Positions 9,365 through 54,710 of a DNA stretch of 64,000 bases are shown in pieces. The notes under the pieces were generated by a model. The model worked only from the letters and a program-made list of their open reading frames with translations, was not told the DNA's origin and searched no databases. This DNA is from Ischnura elegans. Taxonomy: Eukaryota > Arthropoda > Insecta > Odonata > Coenagrionidae. Positions within the stretch are counted from its first letter, which is position 1. Every line of letters begins with the position of its first letter. The stretch covers positions 134,788,198 to 134,852,197 of the forward strand of contig NC_060246.1 in assembly GCF_921293095.1 (NCBI RefSeq), written 5' to 3'. The position numbers and the translations under genes are program-made.

Positions 9365-11550
9365 AACGTAAATGCAATGATTAGCTCTTAAATTTAGAGC
9401 ATGCCCGCTTGACTGGTCGTACTTCGTTTATGGATTACTCAAGTTTTACATTAATAATAAATCAAGGAAAGTTTTTAACGTGTATTTAAAACTTGCTTTA
9501 CCATCGGCAATGTTTTCAGAAAAAATAAAGTAAATCTCTATCAGCCACTTCCCCAATTTCAAATATAAAAATTTTACATCTGAGAAAACTTTCAAATTCG
9601 AGGTTCATTTTAATGCTGAAAAGGGTCCCTTTATCTGACTTGAGAATTGCCAGATGACAGCTGGTAAGTTTTAAATAAGTAGTTGGTCATGTAAAAACGG
9701 GAGGGTGGGAGTTATGCGCCATCGTGAGGAATTCGTACCGAGAAATGAAGGAAAATTCATCGTGACATTTTCTACATGAAATGTGAAAATAGATGATAAC
9801 AGTACATCAAAACAATTTCTCCACACTAAATAATCATTTTTATTAGTATCGTGTTCCCATCCGGATTTAAACTTAAAAATCCGATGTGTTTCGGTGTCTT
9901 ATGTTTCTCTGATTCTCTTAAAATCATTCGCTGCCCGCATGGAATCCCGAGAGATTTACCTGTAAAGTTCTTTAATAGCACTGAAATAAAATACAATTTT
10001 GGCTTTCCATGCATTATTGGCTTCAATTTGCATATGAAAAATATCAAAAATTTTAACATAGGCTCTTTTGGCGATTCTTGTCTGATTGTAGAGAAAGTGT
10101 TGATAACGTCTAGAATATGAATGCGGTCACTAAAAAATGATAAAACAATGTTTTTTATGCCATGAAAATCATGGTTATAATTTTTTTCAGTTATGATGGA
10201 GCCTTCCACAGTTTACCATTGTTTCCTTACTATACCCAGAGAACTATAAATTGAAATTTGCGTGAAAACTCAGCCTTCCCGAGAACATAATCAGTATTCA
10301 AGCTAAGATCCTGTTTTAACGAGTGAATCAACCATGAAATCCAAAATGGAGTATTTGGGGTAGGATTTGGGATGCATAGCTTTTATGGGCCTAATTGAGC
10401 TTAGGTAGTTACATTTTTGGGCTGTTGTAGTTGCCCAACACGCACAAGAGTTAATTATTCGAAGAAGTTTACATGCGATGTGAAGCAAGAGTCTATGGCT
10501 TTACCATGCCTTGATGTGGGCTATTCTGCGAGTTAAAAATTGTCGATTGCCGATGTGTTAACGGCTTCATATACCATTTGGCTGGCATATGATATATTAG
10601 TAATCAACCAAATTATTTGAGCATGAGGAGTCGGTACCAAAGTCATGCCGAGTAAATTTGAGTAACATCTGCATCTACGTATCACCCTGTAAGTCACCTA
10701 TGGCGGTGATTCACGGAGGATTAAAATTTACTTCTACGAACATGTACGCTACATATCACACCAAAAGAATGGGGTTAATACAAATCCAACTTACGAAGGC
10801 AATCTGCCTATAAAGCTAGAACATGAAATACCAGGAAAATTTAGAAACATGCACTTAGGAATACATAAGTTAGTAAGCAACACTACCATTGTCATTCTCG
10901 TCTGTATTGGGAAGATAATAAGAGGAAGATGGGATGGAAGTTTCACCATTGAACGACCTACCCTACTATCCGGTGGCGGTTACGTCAAATGCATTGATAT
11001 TGGAATGAGATCGCGTGCAGCGTAGGGCAGCCTGGTTTGCAAAAGATGTAAAGATAAGCCCATCTGTGTTCCGAAGCCATTAGAGGAATGAAGAGTGGAA
11101 TCACTATTACAGCATTGGGTTCAAGAATAGAACTGAAATCTTGGGCGCAAATCTGGGAGGAATGACTTCTCCAATTACGCGAACAGCATTTTCAGTACTC
11201 GGACCCCGGAGGTTACAGGTATTGTACAAAGTGTTTATCGCGTGATTTTTTTGACAACATAGGAGACTAAACAGTCGCGAAGGAGTCCAAGAATAATGTA
11301 TGCGGATACAATAATTTGGCAGAGTTAGAATAATAAGGGTGCGTAAACGATTATATAAATATTGTACTCTCTATCAGGAGAGTTTATTTTAGAATAGGAA
11401 GCATGAAGTACACTTAGCATTAACATTTTAATTTTTTCATAAGATGTATCAATTATGCAACCCGACCTCAAAATTTGGATTTCTGGTGGTCGTTTGTAGT
11501 GAATATCTTTTAGTATATAAAGAATGATCGCAGGCTATCCCGGCGTATAG
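9365..11550. other. Noncoding AT-rich stretch
   Basis: Overlapping short frames occur on both strands at 9826-10209, but they have no domain and look like chance frames. No RNA gene or repeat was recognised. Confidence 0.5.
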
Positions 11551-11604
11551 AATTGTGGAAGGTTACTCGGGATTTCCATCGGGTCAGGTTCTCCAACTCC
11601 ATCT

Positions 11605-11649
11605 CGGCCGACGTTTCGATGAACGAGTTGTCCATCGTCATCAGGGCAT
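11605..11649 (-). ncRNA. Hammerhead ribozyme motif, left arm
   Basis: On the minus strand the order is GCC (stem I), CTGATGA (complement of 11638-11644), stem II CGATGGAC / GTTCATCG with loop AACTC, GAAAC (complement of 11613-11617), GTC (complement of 11610-11612), then GGC closing stem I. Stem II forms eight pairs including one G-U. Both invariant cores are intact. Stem III is reduced to A-U and C-G around no loop; because ACGT is self-complementary, cleavage would be expected from a two-copy (dimeric) fold, as known for minimal hammerheads of Penelope-like elements. Activity is inferred, not shown. Confidence 0.75.
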
Positions 11650-11666
11650 TGTGGTTTTAAAATTTC

Positions 11667-11711
11667 ATGCCCTGATGACAATGGAAAACTCGTTCATCGA
11701 AACGTCGGCCG
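11667..11711 (+). ncRNA. Hammerhead ribozyme motif, right arm
   Basis: This is the plus-strand counterpart of the motif in the left arm: GCC (11669-11671), CTGATGA (11672-11678), stem II region, GAAAC (11699-11703), GTC (11704-11706), GGC (11707-11709). Stem II is weaker here because the 5' side reads CAATGGAA instead of CGATGGAC, so the left copy is the better-preserved ribozyme. The two motifs point in opposite directions, so a single transcript would carry one ribozyme and the complement of the other. Confidence 0.68.
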
Positions 11712-11765
11712 AGATGGAGTTGGAGAACCTGACCCGGTGGAAATCTCGAGTAACCTTACACAATT

Positions 11766-14510
11766 TTAGAATATAATAATGACTATCTAATAGTGACTTG
11801 AATAAGATGCCTCATCTTGGCTCTTTGCACTTGAATCTAATTGTGGCAGCAAAAAAATTAGCTAAACCCCTAATAACAGATATTACTTTGTAAATATATG
11901 CTGACAGAATTTTTGTCTCAAACACTTGAAAAAAAGGAACACAAAAAACTTGCCATATAGCTGTTTCGGTCAGAATGCATTCGGGCATTAGGTATCATAG
12001 GCAATCAGTAACAATGTGGAAATTGTGAATTTTTCTCGTTTTATCCGGTGGTTTCTATTTGCCTGTTTCTTCCTGGTTCCATTTGATTTATTTTCAGATA
12101 GAGAAGCAACAAGCCATTTCGAAACTAAGAAAAAACTGGTTTTACGACCAAATTTCGAATTTTTAATACTTGTAGTTGCTTAATATGTAAATCATCATTG
12201 GTAACTACAAAGCATATCGATTGAATACAACTACTCAACAAAAGACGAAACATTTCACATTACCGTCATGTAAAATTTATACACCGCAGTACGAGGTATT
12301 TTATAATCCTTTTTAAAATCTATTTCGATTTCCTCATTTTTTCTGCAACTACCGCTTGATATTTTATTTTAATATTTGAAAAGTATTATTTGTTTGAAGA
12401 AAATGAAATTTGCACTTTGAATATCTCAGTTTATTACGAATGGCGCAATTCGATATATTAAAGTTTAAATTGAAATTTTATTATTTTTTTGAACTCAAGC
12501 GTGTACGCATGGTTGCACGTAGACGTATCCATTCATATAATTAGGAATTCATTTGAAAGGACAGCTGACCTCCGAGCAATGTCACGATATCCTAAAATCC
12601 CTTCCTTCTCGTGCTCTTTTCTCCGTAATCATCCTCTGAGATTAAGTGGCGTTGTGACACAAATAACATCGCTTCTGTTCGCCAAAATTGCGACATTCCT
12701 ATTCGTCCCTATTTTGATTCCACTGTTTATTGGTTTCCCTTGTGTTTCCCCTAAAAAATTGCGGGCATGTGGTTCGCAACCTTTGACTTTCAGTATTTTT
12801 CGATGAATCAATCAGTGGGAATAAGGGAATTAATCTGAAGAATTTTTCATTGAATATATACCACCTAATCATAAAATAGAACGCCATCCGAAATAACTGA
12901 TTGCTGCAATCTTTGCTGTAGATGGTAAGAGGAGAAGATAAAAAATTAAATGATTACACGATAGCTGACCTAAATTCCTATGTTAAAATATTTAAGCATT
13001 AATAATCAGTTTTTATTCGGTGGATCGAATAGTTTTTGCTATGAATAGAGGGAAACATGAAAAATTTGTGATTCAGGGTTAAGCTTTTGCAGAAGAGACA
13101 TTAGTGCCAAAGATAAATCGCTGATTATCACATGCAAATGAAGAATTGAAAGCCTCCGAGTACGAACAGGAAAGAATAATTTTTCTGTGCTTACGACCAA
13201 GATTGAAATAGAAAATTACCAAATCACGTGGTCCCTCGCCCACGATGACCGTACCCATCCAACCCACCGGTGCCCATTGTAATTCCGTCGACAAAAATGG
13301 TAGATTCTTTTAGATTTAGTTTGACCAGACGCTGTATTTTTGGTTGCGATATCTTTATAAACTCAAGGATTATGATAATAAATAAATAATAATATATAAC
13401 CCCCTGAATATAAGCTCAGTGAAAGTAGCTAAAATTCAAAATGAAATAAACTTCAGTTTCAATTCAAAATGAACGATTTTCAAATTAATGTTACACACAT
13501 GTAGGAACATACCAATCTATGTTGAACCATGGATCGGTTTTTGAAAATAAGAGTTGTGGTTTTTATTGAACAAAATTGGCTACATAATGAATATCCGTTA
13601 GATGTTTGCCCAGTCGTAGGTACCATTTTCACACATAGTAACACCCCAAATGTTTCTAAGGAATCTATAAGAATGGAGTTTTGAACTGTATTCTCCCACC
13701 CACACCACCTTTCCTCCAATAATTATTACTAATTGCTTCTGCATCTTATGACTCAGTAAAAATGGAAGCCCTGTTTGCGTAATGTACATTCTCAATAATT
13801 CCTTCGCTTAGTTACGAAAATAACTAATGGAGCCAGAAGAAGAGAAAATAAAGTAGTTAGCTAAGCGTACTCTTTTTCAGTTTAATTCGACATTCTTTCC
13901 AATCCCTGTTACATTAACCGCGTTTACCTCCGTATCCTCTTTTAGAATAGCAATAATGCGAACACTGAAAGTCACCTCTTCACTTTTATGTAATCCTCAA
14001 TTTAAAACCCATTTCTCATGAGTGCTCAAGGGATTTCTGAATATCCCCTCCGTGAACTTTACTAAATCCTCAGTTCTCTCGTAACAGATTTCAGCTACGC
14101 GCGAGGATTTTCCTTGCATTCTATTAATTTGAGGGTTAAATCCTTTACAAAGTACTAGGTATCCTTTTTGTACACAAATTCGGGTATTTTAAATGTTGAA
14201 GAACCTATAATCCTTTTAATCTTAACTCCAAGCAAGTTGTAAGGGATACAAATATTTATACTGAGAGAGTATTATATCATTTCTATTTTCATTCAAATCC
14301 TACTGTAATTTCCTTTTTGTTAATAGCTTACGAGATTGATAAAATTATGAAAAATCAGCAAACTACATGTTAAGTTTTGCAATGTTTTCCTTCTATTTTT
14401 ATTTTCAGCGGATATATATCATTGTCAAGTTTCTGGGTGTATGCTACCTTTGCGGATAGCACGACTCTCGAAAGTAAATTCAGCGATTAGTCCTTTTTCT
14501 TTTTTCAAAC
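11766..14510. other. Noncoding AT-rich stretch
   Basis: The frames at 12489-12806 (+) and 13480-13795 (-) have no recognisable domain. Composition is uniform and no RNA gene was seen. Confidence 0.5.
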
Positions 14511-23584: not shown

Positions 23585-24162
23585 GTCAGCATTTTGTAAC
23601 GACGTTATTTTCAAATGAAAACCCACACTTTAACCCACCTTTCCACATAATTTCCGTTAGCAATAAGGCAGTAGGTAATCATTTCGAATGACAAACTTTT
23701 TTACACCATCGACACGGCTAATTGCCGCCTGAGCTGACAGCCTGAATTCGATGGGCTGCATGTGAACTCGAGTTTTGGGATAAGAAAGGGAATATGCTCT
23801 TCAATTTGAGATCTTAAACAAATTGTCCCCTGAAATTGAGAGCAAAAGACGAGAAATGCTGATTAAAGGGATCGTTTTACTACATGACTAATCCCGGCCA
23901 AGTACAGCCTATCGAAATCTAGATCTCATTGTCTCTTTTCATCTGAAGAAACGTTTAAGAAGTCAGCGCCATGTTGGCGATGAAAGCGTAGTAACAACAG
24001 TTTGCAGGGGCTGTCACCTCAGGCGGCAATTTTCTATGACGACAGTATGCAAAAGCTTGTTGTTCGATACGATAAGTGCCCTAATGTTAACGGAAATTAT
24101 GTGGAAAGTTCGTTTAAAGTGTGCGCTTTTATGTGAAAATAAATTTGTTACAAAAGTTGACC
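23585..24162. mobile_element. Foldback / MITE element with about 135-bp inverted arms
   Basis: The left arm (about 23585-23727) and right arm (about 24010-24162) are inverted copies. Both contain TTTTGTAAC at the outer end, then CACACTTTAA, CTTTCCACATAATTTCCGTT, and TTGCCGCCTGAG.TGACAGCC at the inner end. The interior of about 280 bases has no frame of note. Long arms and no coding capacity mark a non-autonomous DNA element. No target-site duplication is clear, so superfamily is not assigned. Confidence 0.7.
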
Positions 24163-41739: not shown

Positions 41740-42225
41740 CCTCTTTTCTCTCCAGCTCCAGATTTTCCCATGCACGAATAAGGTAAATAATGAGCAAAGG
41801 GTGGAGATATATTTTTTTAATATCATCACAGCATAGCTACCTTCCTATTTCCTCGTTTCCTCAAAGATGTTCAGTAACGTTGCTTCTTATCGCAGTAGTC
41901 ACACGTAAGTTTTTCTAAACCTTCGGAAATGGCTATTTTTAAGAATATTATTACAAACCGAAAGAAGGCGAATTGTAAAATTTTGACTGCAAATAATGAA
42001 TAGGATGAACTGAGCATTTTCTTAAATGATGTAAAAAGTTTGTTTCCACCCGGGATCGAACCGAGGACCTTGCGCGTGTGAGGCGCACGTGATAACCACT
42101 ACACTATGGAAACACATGTTAAAGAGCTGATGCTGTTGAGGTGGACAATCGGCATTCAAAATTTTGCTGAAATGAAAACGGCTCCGTAGTGATTCCGTTA
42201 CGAAAAGTTACTAGTTGCGTCGTGT
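41740..42225. repeat. Left arm of inverted duplication carrying tRNA-Val
   Basis: Read forward, this arm matches the reverse complement of about 42900-43320. Shared landmarks in order are AATAATGAGCAAAGGGTGGAG, ATCATCACAGCA, CCTCAAAGATGTT, the tRNA-Val gene, and TTTGCTGAAATGAAA. Similarity is patchy, about 70% by eye outside the tRNA, so the duplication is old. The tRNA itself is better conserved than its flanks. Confidence 0.75.
42041..42113 (-). tRNA. tRNA-Val (anticodon CAC)
   Basis: The 73-base cloverleaf is complete. The acceptor stem GTTTCCA / TGGAAAC is fully paired. The anticodon stem TGCGC / GCGCA holds the loop CTCACAC, with CAC at 42080-42078. The T arm CTCGG-TTCGATC-CCGGG has one G-U pair, and the discriminator is A. 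The A box TAGTGTAGTGG and B box GGTTCGATCCC serve as internal promoter for RNA polymerase III. A TTTTT terminator follows at once. There is no intron. It would read GUG valine codons. It sits in the left arm of an inverted duplication, facing away from its partner at 43.0 kb. It looks functional. Confidence 0.95.
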
Positions 42226-42229
42226 ACTG

Positions 42230-42890
42230 GTAAATGGTTCATAATTACTTCAAGATTACAGTTCCTGGGCGTCTGAATAGAAAATCCCAGCTTCAAGGTG
42301 TTCAAGTGCACAAATATTTTTTGTCATTTGTAAAAGCTTAATACTTAATTAATTGACAATGGCGATACTTCGTGGAAATTTCGTGCGTTAAACATGGTAA
42401 ATGAGGCAACTTTATGCATTCCACACATTTTTATTTATAAATTATTAAATCTGTGTGGGAAATAAAAAGTTGTTATATTTACGAATTTTATGCTTCGTGT
42501 TTAATATAAATAACTATGTGCTTGACGTTTCGAAATTAGAGAATAGAATTTTTGGAAAAATTTCCATTCATTAAGTGAGATGATGTCAAATATTGCCATA
42601 TCCTCGACATTGAAATGAAGGATCATTGATTGGCCTCCGATGCCGAAACAAATTGTAAGATTCTTTCCTTATTTCATAGTTCCGCTATATTCCATGCGAT
42701 TATAAAATACCCGCTCTTTATCGACTTAATACAAGCGACAATAAGACCAGCAGAGTTTATAGTGGGTATAATAGTATTTTTAGATTGGTGAAACTTTTGC
42801 CAGCATACTATTATGAAATCATCATCATCATAAGTCGACAATCGTTAAGTTGGTTTTACGCAACTCTCCATTCTTATATCCATAATATAT
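42230..42890. other. Spacer between the inverted tRNA-Val arms
   Basis: About 660 bases of AT-rich sequence separate the two arms. No gene or repeat was recognised. Confidence 0.5.
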
Positions 42891-42899
42891 CCGGAATCA

Positions 42900-43330
42900 C
42901 AATGACATACCGAGGCCGATTTCATTTCAGCAAACCTCTGAACGCCGAATCCGTACGTCACTAGCACCACATATTCATTATGCGTTTCCATAGTGTAGTG
43001 GTTATCACGTGCGCCTCACACGTGCAAGATCCCCAGTTCGATCGCGGGTGGAAAGAGATTTTTAATTTTAACAAATTTTTATCTGTCCTACTTTCTATTC
43101 ACTTTTTGAATGCGCATCTCTTTCAGTTATAACAGGTTTGAACAGGTTTAGCGTCGGTGCAAGAATTTCCTGTGACTTCTAGGAAAAGTAGCAACGCTAC
43201 TTAACATCTTTGAGGAAGGAGGAAGTAGGAAGCTAACTCTGCTGTGATGGTATAAAAAATATCCTCACCCTCCGTCCTTGATGCTCATTGGTGAAAGTTT
43301 CACACAAAAGGGCAATCCCCTGCGGTGATG
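42900..43330. repeat. Right arm of inverted duplication carrying a decayed tRNA-Val
   Basis: This is the inverted partner of 41740-42225. Landmarks from right to left are CCTCACCCTCCGTCC, ATGCTCATTGG, TGCTGTGATGGTAT, AACATCTTTGAGGAAGGAGG, the tRNA-like copy, and TTTCATTTCAGCAAA. Confidence 0.75.
42984..43056 (+). pseudogene. Decaying tRNA-Val (CAC) copy
   Basis: This copy keeps the 73-base length, the A box, the anticodon loop CTCACAC (CAC at 43017-43019) and an anticodon stem with one G-U pair. Its T arm reads CCCAG-TTCGATC-GCGGG, so two of five pairs are lost (A-C and G-G), and the first acceptor pair is G-G. The B box has also changed (TTCGATCG in place of TTCGATCC). A TTTTT run still follows at 43059. 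The damage falls in the T arm and promoter, so this is probably a pseudogene; its inverted partner at 42041-42113 is intact. Confidence 0.85.
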
Positions 43331-44403: not shown

Positions 44404-44570
44404 TACAATGTAATCATGAAATCTTCACGGGAAATCAGCCGGGTAATGATGGTCATTGCTGCCAACGTTCCGATGGCAGCAATGACCATCATTACCCGGC
44501 TGATTTCCCGTGAAGATTTCATCAACAGCATTCGCCGGTAAAGCACCAAATCCTTCTACAATGTAATCAT
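44404..44570. mobile_element. Perfect 49-bp-arm palindrome inside a 14-bp target-site duplication
   Basis: Arms at 44416-44464 and 44474-44522 are exact inverted copies of 49 bases with a 9-base loop (ACGTTCCGA). The whole is bracketed by the direct repeat TACAATGTAATCAT at 44404-44417 and 44557-44570. A 34-base single-copy tail (44523-44556) lies between the right arm and the right repeat. The direct repeats indicate a discrete insertion, and the perfect arms indicate it is recent or kept identical. The structure resembles the inverted remnant at 11.6 kb, so a Penelope-type or other retroelement origin is plausible, but no ribozyme core is seen here. Confidence 0.85.
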
Positions 44571-53400: not shown

Positions 53401-54262
53401 TTATGTTACATTGAACCTGTAACAGTCAATGATCGTGAGCTGATACCAGTTGCCTCCACTGCCCTCTCCTAATTTACATTACTAAGCGGGGGAGCAGATA
53501 TGAATGAGCTCCGTTGACTTTTAAGACGAAGGAAGTATGAGGAAGTGTATTGAAATTTCGGCTGCAAGTTACATATACAACAAATATTTTCAAAATCTTA
53601 ATATAAGAAATTGCAGTCTTCGAAAGGAGAGAAAAATTTAACTCTGAGCTTTGCAAATGTTTATCTTTGTGCGATGATACCACAATTCAGCCGATGACTA
53701 AATGTTACGGAATCACCATAGAATGAATTTTTTACATCATAACATATGAACGCCGCTGTGAGAAACCATTGAATGTCGATGGTTTTCACGACTGATTTCT
53801 AATATCTCATAACGTCTCCGTAGTGTAGTGGTTATCACGTGCGCCTCACACGCGCAAGGGCCCCGGTTCGATCCCGGGCGGAGACAAATTTTTATCTTCG
53901 ATTTACAATTTTTGCCTCGATATTTCTCTTCCATCATTATAAAAAAACCTAATGAGGGAAGATCAAGTCTTGAGGCAGCATTTACTCTATCGGTAGCCTT
54001 TCCTGACGAGATTTAAGTACTTGACTGCACTTACACTCGTGACAATGCTAATTTTTCTCTCTACTTCTGCACAATAGGTACTTCTTGACGAAAGCTATTT
54101 CAGTTTCTCGGCGACTGCATCTATCATAAATACAATCGATGTAAATGACACATGGTCAAATTATACACTTCTAGTGGAAATTGTAATGATTATATTACCC
54201 ACGCATAGGCATATGCACACTCTAGTAACTGTGGCAAACTGATTTTCCTGCTTAATCCGGAT
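53401..54262 (+). repeat. First unit of tandem duplication carrying tRNA-Val
   Basis: The unit contains, in order, GTTGACTTTTAAGACGAAG, AACGCCGCTGTG, AAACCATTGAAT, the tRNA-Val gene, GTCTTGAGGCAGCATTTACT, CACAATAGGTACTTC and AACTGATTTTCCTG. Each landmark recurs in order in the next unit, with the tRNA starts 824 bases apart. Similarity is about 70-75% by eye outside the tRNA. It preserves the uninterrupted form of the site that carries a MITE in the second unit. Confidence 0.85.
53814..53886 (+). tRNA. tRNA-Val (anticodon CAC)
   Basis: Complete 73-base cloverleaf: acceptor GTCTCCG / CGGAGAC, anticodon stem TGCGC / GCGCA with CAC at 53847-53849, T arm CCCGG-TTCGATC-CCGGG fully paired, discriminator A. 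Internal A box TAGTGTAGTGG and B box GGTTCGATCCC are intact, and TTTTT at 53889-53893 would end polymerase III transcription. The base before the T arm is G here and T in the other copies, giving GGGC in the variable loop. No intron. It looks functional. Its acceptor stem differs from the 42-kb pair (GTCTCCG against GTTTCCA), with pairing kept. Confidence 0.96.
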
Positions 54263-54637
54263 GAATCCGTTACAGCCAATGGTTGCGAGTTGATTCCAGT
54301 TACTGCACTTCCCTCTCCCAATTTAAGCCTCTACGTGGGAAAGCAGATAAAAGTGAAATGAGTTCACTTTTAAGACGAAGAGAAATTAAAAATTGAACGA
54401 CAACTTTAGCTTTAAATGATATTTACATCAAGTCTTCTAAATCATAAAATTAAAAATTGCAGACTCCTAAAAATTGAGTGAAAAATTGAAATCCAGCCAT
54501 GCGGATTTTTATTCACGAGGGATGACACAACAACTTCACCGATAACAACATTTATTAACGAAATCATCAAAACATACGAACGCCGCTGCGGGAAACCATT
54601 GAATTACAATCCTTCTCAAGACAACTTCCATCATGCC

Positions 54638-54710
54638 GTCTCCGTAGTGTAGCGGTTATCACGTGCGCCTCACACGCGCAAGGTCCCCGGTTCGATCCCG
54701 GGCGGAGACA
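54638..54710 (+). tRNA. tRNA-Val (anticodon CAC)
   Basis: Complete 73-base cloverleaf, the same as the upstream copy except for GCGG in place of GTGG in the D loop and T in place of G in the variable loop. Acceptor, anticodon (CAC at 54671-54673) and T stems are fully paired, with discriminator A. TTTT at 54713-54716 is a short polymerase III terminator. No intron. It lies in the second unit of the tandem duplication. The tRNA is far better conserved than its flanks, which indicates selection or gene conversion on both copies. Confidence 0.96.

Follow-up and report, generated by a model that had tools for sequence, protein, structure and literature searches.

The element and its parts

The window, i.e., the whole stretch of 64,000 nucleotides of Ischnura elegans DNA that was analysed, contains an inverted repeat formed by positions 11548-11649 and 11667-11768, with arms of 102 nt that are 94% complementary and a spacer of 17 nt. 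The palindrome described in a sequence-only reading of this DNA is therefore real, but the coordinates given there, 11551-11765, are slightly off: the element spans 11520-11763, and its left end includes a 28-nt 'tail' that lies outside what the palindrome shows. The parts are assigned as follows, with the arms read as putative stubs of the mRNA of a Penelope-like element (PLE).

11508-11519, no strand: left target-site duplication TTTTAGTATATA; 11 of 12 positions match 11764-11775
11520-11649, minus strand: left arm, antisense PLE mRNA 5′ stub, +1 to about +130, tail included
11520-11547, minus strand: 'tail', 28 extra nt at the 3′ end of the left arm only; the right arm is without it
11607-11647, minus strand: left-arm minimal hammerhead motif, predicted cut between 11610 and 11609
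11633-11635, minus strand: ATG start codon of the PLE ORF, within stem II, from the sequence
11650-11666, no strand: copy-specific filler of 17 nt at the head-to-head joint; joints are distinct across the family
11667-11763, plus strand: right arm, PLE mRNA 5′ stub, +1 to +97, no tail
11669-11709, plus strand: right-arm minimal hammerhead motif with weakened stem II, predicted cut between 11706 and 11707
11764-11775, no strand: right target-site duplication TTTTAGAATATA; 11 of 12 match to 11508-11519

The 11/12 match of the target duplication was read by eye from the flanks, the script having given a 6-nt exact core only.

Other repeats are present in the window. A second near-perfect short palindrome at 44416-44522 (52-nt arms, 98%, 3 nt between them) lies outside the three hammerhead pattern matches given below, and a weaker inverted repeat at 23592-24155 (arms of 79 and 65 nt, 84% and 75%) is perhaps an old foldback element. 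Four tRNA-Val(CAC) genes are predicted at 42040-43056 and 53814-54710, three of which reach the gathering score in Rfam; two of the four form an inverted pair within 149-nt arms.

Hammerhead motifs in both arms

Each arm carries both hammerhead cores (CTGATGA...GAAAC-GTC) closed by a GCC/GGC stem I, exactly as had been noticed from the sequence; the left-arm motif reads GCC-CTGATGA-stem II-GAAACGTC^GGC. A loose hammerhead regular expression has three matches in the 64-kb window, two of which are these arms, and in 200 mononucleotide shuffles the same expression matched 0.245 times on average and at most twice. The evidence from the family is far stronger than this excess over shuffles. On the sequence, the features of the minimal PLE type are present: CUGANGA, GAAA, an NUH core, and stems I and II, with helix III absent. 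The motif lies at the junction between pLTR and ORF, and its cut is predicted 26 nt after the A of the ATG start codon.

Searches with Rfam covariance models found no hammerhead match, even at E-values up to 10. Such an outcome had been proposed in advance as grounds for rejecting the motif, but it is not decisive, as it is expected from the absence of helix III and PLE hammerheads have been described without this helix (PMC7761336, PMC6155905). The hairpin matches to microRNA families that Rfam returned are all well below gathering scores and reflect the palindrome only.

Folded separately, the left-arm (minus-strand) motif does form the eight-pair stem II attributed to it earlier (z −1.67; matched by 9 of 200 shuffles), but the eighth pair would take up the core G, and with seven pairs the GAAA core stays intact. 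One extra C sits between the core and stem II. The right-arm copy, which has two changes in stem II, shows no folding advantage over shuffled sequences (z +0.52; matched by 136 of 200). The transcript of the whole element is predicted to fold into a single hairpin (−187.8 kcal/mol, z −23). With a moderately good separate fold on the left, none better than shuffles on the right, and this long hairpin for the whole transcript, neither ribozyme is likely to act from the window locus.

The two common variants of the family differ at core position 7, which tolerates any base. Across the family copies, the frequency of the minor letter is 0.03-0.05 at core positions versus 0.046 in the rest of the arm; a core that varies about as much as its flanks is as expected of dead insertions. 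A variant with TCG replacing AAA before CGTCGG is found at 20 places and would lose the hammerhead GAAA.

A dispersed family of short insertions

A search of the 1.72-Gb genome for related elements revealed a dispersed family, the longer copies of which run into PLE coding sequence. With the window element as query, at least 80 matches were obtained from the 40 scored of 2204 first-look candidates. Genome-wide, 1230 places match a 28-nt arm pattern when one mismatch is allowed (619 on the plus and 611 on the minus strand; reversed control 0), and 1251 match the 5′ part of the hammerhead when two are allowed. In the alignment, the outer ends are constant and so is, in most copies, the inner end ATGCCC, while the centre is different in each copy.

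Counts were made in defined sets of loci. Set A consists of the 27 top matches (L001-L007, L009-L028) and is biased towards copies that resemble the window. Set B consists of 71 loci, taken in listing order among the first 100 places of the 1230-match search; as all of these places lie on contigs C1-C3 and match the pattern exactly, older copies are under-represented. Set B excludes five contig-end pairs sharing one arm spacing, taken as a subtelomeric repeat, five loci that had already been collected (the window included) and the last two places; two excluded pairs, C2:146679819 and C2:147691237, were judged by position and spacing only. Set K contains 9 loci picked for having one arm that starts at +41.

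One element copy lies in a repeat block near many contig ends and is found, as G000, at 14 places (e.g., C1:2468358, C8:106187 and C19:123237869). About 6 kb of L029 in this subtelomeric block recurs in L030, L031 and L032 with 99.3-99.8% identity; the match to L033 is split into three pieces. On C19, three G000 copies lie about 2.0 Mb apart, perhaps because a large region was duplicated in tandem, or as an artefact of the assembly.

Paired arms with a single tail

Arms at most 400 nt apart form a head-to-head pair at 57 of the 71 set-B loci and, in the query-biased set A, at 27 of 27. A pair of this kind, which had been thought less usual, is instead the common state of the family. For rotifer Penelopes as well, head-to-head is described as the most frequently observed inverted arrangement (PMC3846280). 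The orientations of adjacent arms in set B are −+ in 57 cases, −− in 3, ++ in 1 and +− in 0. The other 14 set-B loci are without a paired arm; some of these may resemble L065 and L066 (outside set B), where the second arm is apparently only 8-12 nt long, as judged by eye.

The pairs are generally bordered by target duplications. Exact flanking repeats of at least 7 nt surround 67 of 84 pairs, versus 3.8% of 1658 mismatched control flanks, the commonest lengths being 13 and 12 nt; these counts, as well as those of fillers and diagnostic sites below, use arms from an end refinement that over-extended some of them to −1.

The 3′ ends of the arms fall mainly at +93 to +104 and at +125 to +130, the point at which the reference ends, with 7 of 179 outside these ranges. 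An arm takes in ~80 or ~115 nt from the beginning of the ORF. Exactly one arm per pair carries the tail in 27/27 pairs of set A and in 51/57 of set B. Among the remaining six set-B pairs, two have no tail (their longest flanking repeat is 3 nt) and four are unscorable (three ?T and one ?n); a pair with two tails was not found among the 57. When set B is restricted to pairs with a target duplication of at least 7 nt, the tail is on exactly one arm in 43/43. A second PLE family likewise has one tail in 11/11 complete distinct pairs, a count that omits L050 and L058/L059, in each of which one arm is truncated.

Joints and the kinship of paired arms

The centre of the element differs in nearly every copy: in sets A and B together, 64 of 65 non-overlapping joints are distinct. 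At 18 of 84 joints the arms overlap without filler, and the other 66 are non-overlapping; 16 of the 84 exceed 30 nt, and these may include a few pairs of arms that were inserted separately. Part of the filler appears to be templated, as 15 of 44 fillers of 8-65 nt match the element over at least 9 nt (shuffles 1.5%).

The two arms of a pair tend to carry the same diagnostic variants. Concordance within pairs is 46/46 at position 10 (25.8 expected), 46/53 at position 27 (27.9), 47/50 at position 28 (28.6), 72/76 at position 77 (51.9) and 72/75 at position 83 (38.2); positions 84 (65/73; 57.2) and 96 (46/54; 43.3) are weak diagnostic sites. The median divergence between arms is 5.5% within pairs and 8.4% between pairs. 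This concordance fits one source locus or one RNA, but also a single subfamily being active at a time.

Shared variants would also be produced by self-priming, in which a cDNA (or antisense transcript) is bent back on itself and serves as its own template, giving a head-to-head repeat. This mechanism has been proposed, with an antisense template, for rotifer head-to-head copies with palindromic joints (PMC3846280), and the 18 overlapping joints without filler speak for it. However, self-priming would copy the tail into both arms, whereas exactly one tail is observed in all set-B pairs with a duplication of at least 7 nt, and the same one-tail pattern recurs in the second PLE family. Moreover, most joints contain filler and no simple fold-back loop. 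Self-priming is therefore considered unlikely, even if it is the strongest of the competing explanations.

The parent element and its predicted mRNA start

Upstream of ATGCCC, the longer copies contain GACTCGAC and a TATA box, preceded by the end of an ORF. Of the 31 rows that include the promoter, 16 have TATATAA starting at −31, most of the others have something close to it there, and 30 show C/A at −1/+1. Because a TATA box lies 31 nt upstream and C/A stands at −1/+1, the fixed 5′ point of the arms is predicted to be the mRNA start. The upstream ORF ends about 47-49 nt before +1 (stop at −49 in L068) in a GIY-YIG-like stretch: L125 and L099 have DIYQIPC/GIYQTPC-TCGLVYVGETGRT before the pLTR, and the Pfam model PF01541 scored E 0.0075 and 17 bits on a 53-aa piece, under the cut-off of 22.6. 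In the second PLE family, GIY-YIG is above the Pfam cut-off and a related hammerhead motif lies downstream. When three mismatches are allowed, GGAGGACGATTTTCAAGAYTCGACATGCCCTGA from the pLTR is found at 211 places, against 0 for the control. The arm itself is an open frame, MDNSFIETSAEMELENLTRWKSRVTFHNSIRREILRSFF in L064, and the predicted cut lies 26 nt after the frame start. Two copies, L071 and L073, break within a few nucleotides of the same place in the PLE ORF end, before ATCTGTTGGGAG, which may be chance.

The suggestion that the hammerheads stem from a Penelope-like element is borne out.

5′ ends of the arms and ribozyme cutting

The 5′ ends were counted as strict ends, without the refinement that over-extends arms. 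Of 114 set-B arms, 34 begin at the start site (−3 to +3), 13 at +40 to +42, 16 further upstream and 51 elsewhere, with starts beyond +41 under-sampled because the set-B anchor begins at +41; in set A, which is biased, 47 of 54 begin at the start site. The start lies at +39 or earlier in 89 of the 114 set-B arms, which thus contain the uncut cleavage site; most templates that reached this region therefore retained an intact hammerhead. This agrees with the in vitro result for the Anolis element PAc (PMC11167929).

There is nevertheless a peak at the cut. Among the sampled arms, 12 start exactly at +41, versus 1.2 per position over +4 to +40. Genome-wide, arms with three unrelated bases before the position number 12 at +41, 4 at +45 and 31 at +37, and of the last, 20 (TCG) and 6 (GTG) look like recurring variants. 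The excess at +41 may come from hammerhead-cut templates, a reading that is suggestive only, as it is confounded by the 8-nt palindrome TCGGCCGA, which spans the predicted cut, and by microhomology. Several of the +41 cases (L082, L084 and L087, by eye) have microhomology joints at TCGGCCGA, and in L116 and L123 the arms overlap there. The second family, which is without TCGGCCGA, has 0 starts at the cut site, a count without power because both neighbouring controls are 0 too. In set K, 6 pairs were found in the 9 loci, with the combinations +41/other (2), +41/pLTR (2), +41/TSS (1) and +41/+41 (1). Of the 12 listed places with a start at +41, 9 have A immediately before GGCC, where A, G and T were the only bases allowed; this A could be a base added at the cDNA end.

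Origin of the opposed ribozymes

With high confidence, the locus is interpreted as a minimal, putatively dual-primed insertion of a PLE, probably of the GIY-YIG kind, consisting of two 5′ stubs of its mRNA placed head-to-head, the parent ORF having been read from end pieces. In the proposed route, the enzyme of the element would nick both DNA strands at the target, and both nicked strands would prime reverse transcription at two adjacent internal sites of the RNA, one of which gives the tail. Both cDNAs would then be extended towards the 5′ end of the RNA, and repair with templated patches would join them head-to-head. For the Anolis PLE, nicking and extension of both strands, two internal start sites and a tail between them have been described (PMC11167929). 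The two opposed ribozymes would thus be inherited from two mRNA 5′ ends, with no evident joint function.

As the arrangement comes from integration, the opposed ribozymes would be a by-product and not a designed ribozyme/antisense pair, and the earlier idea that one arm blocks the other has nothing but base pairing behind it, with centres that are specific to nearly every copy. A regulated pair, selected because of such blocking, has in its favour the folding of the full transcript into one very stable hairpin. However, any inverted repeat folds in this way, the order of the arms is set by integration, the same arrangement exists in another PLE family and the core decays at roughly the same rate as the rest of the arm, all of which makes selection for regulation very improbable.

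Short, palindromic elements with a high copy number and target duplications would also fit a DNA transposon of the foldback or MITE-like type, with hammerhead motifs in it and moved as a unit by a transposase. Given that the centre differs in nearly every copy, that the outer ends are no mirror images (one tail), that repeat lengths vary and that longer copies continue into PLE coding sequence, such a transposon is even less probable than a regulated pair. The same low standing applies to a retrozyme-like element spreading by ribozyme-cut circular RNA, as animal retrozymes with a hammerhead motif in a short repeat are indeed known (PMC7229834), but these are head-to-tail, whereas adjacent set-B arms are head-to-head in 57 cases and direct in 4, with a fixed 5′ end 40 nt upstream of the ribozyme cut.

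Relation to known elements and implications

The present family has its closest counterpart in PAc, a Poseidon/Penelope element from Anolis carolinensis. As described for PAc, the hammerhead stretches across the pLTR/ORF junction with its cut 26 nt past the start codon, C3 and G8 precede the start codon, stems I and II but not stem III are listed among its parts, and two internal start sites for reverse transcription have the 'tail' between them, one of them 111-118 nt into the ORF. PAc is described in tandem arrays (PMC11167929), whereas in the sample examined here short stubs placed head-to-head are common, and many of them begin at one and the same 5′ point. Endonuclease-containing Penelopes of the rotifer Adineta vaga share the head-to-head inverted pLTRs, the palindromes at joints, TSDs (8-10 bp in the cases described) and an optional tail on one inverted pLTR. 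The account of these copies mentions no hammerhead and proposes self-priming, whereas the ~1200 arms available here give counts against it (PMC3846280). The optional tail of GIY-YIG PLEs is 30-40 bp on one side, and is 28 nt in the window.

A hammerhead core lacking helix III is also known from PLEs, in the reviews of minimal type I hammerheads in PLEs and Terminons (PMC7761336, PMC6155905). Most minimal hammerheads are reported as dispersed in non-coding DNA (PMC7761336); here, the motifs that lie dispersed belong to short insertions of a PLE. The retrozymes of Metazoa are likewise short repeats with type I hammerheads, but they are described as tandem head-to-tail repeats with canonical helices and circular RNA (PMC7229834), while the present elements are head-to-head. 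Head-to-head pLTRs, tails and minimal hammerheads are thus already known from these descriptions. The one-tail count and the start-site boundary of the stubs look new: a limited search of the literature, in the sections covered, found no tail count per insertion and no stub ends tied to an mRNA start.

Both the route of PLE integration and the purpose of the hammerhead have been described as open (PMC11167929, PMC7761336), and the one-tail count and start-site boundary bear on how PLEs integrate. As a tentative generalization, given slightly less than an even chance, PLE integration may be an obligatory paired reaction, in which two reverse transcriptions start at staggered internal sites, one for each nicked strand, with the same RNA or RNAs of one locus as the probable template, so that every complete insertion would be head-to-head with one tail. 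The stubs would then be a genome-wide fossil record of the 5′ ends of template RNAs. Many of these ends would be the mRNA start of uncut RNA, which precedes stem I by 2 nt, and some may be the ribozyme cut.

In this family, hundreds of insertions that arose in nature can be read to their ends. They show two 3′ start points, each of which is used once in an insertion, paired arms from the same subfamily, templated joints and mostly uncut templates. The family also suggests a reason for the scattered occurrence of minimal hammerheads that have no host element, as these can be small insertions of a PLE.
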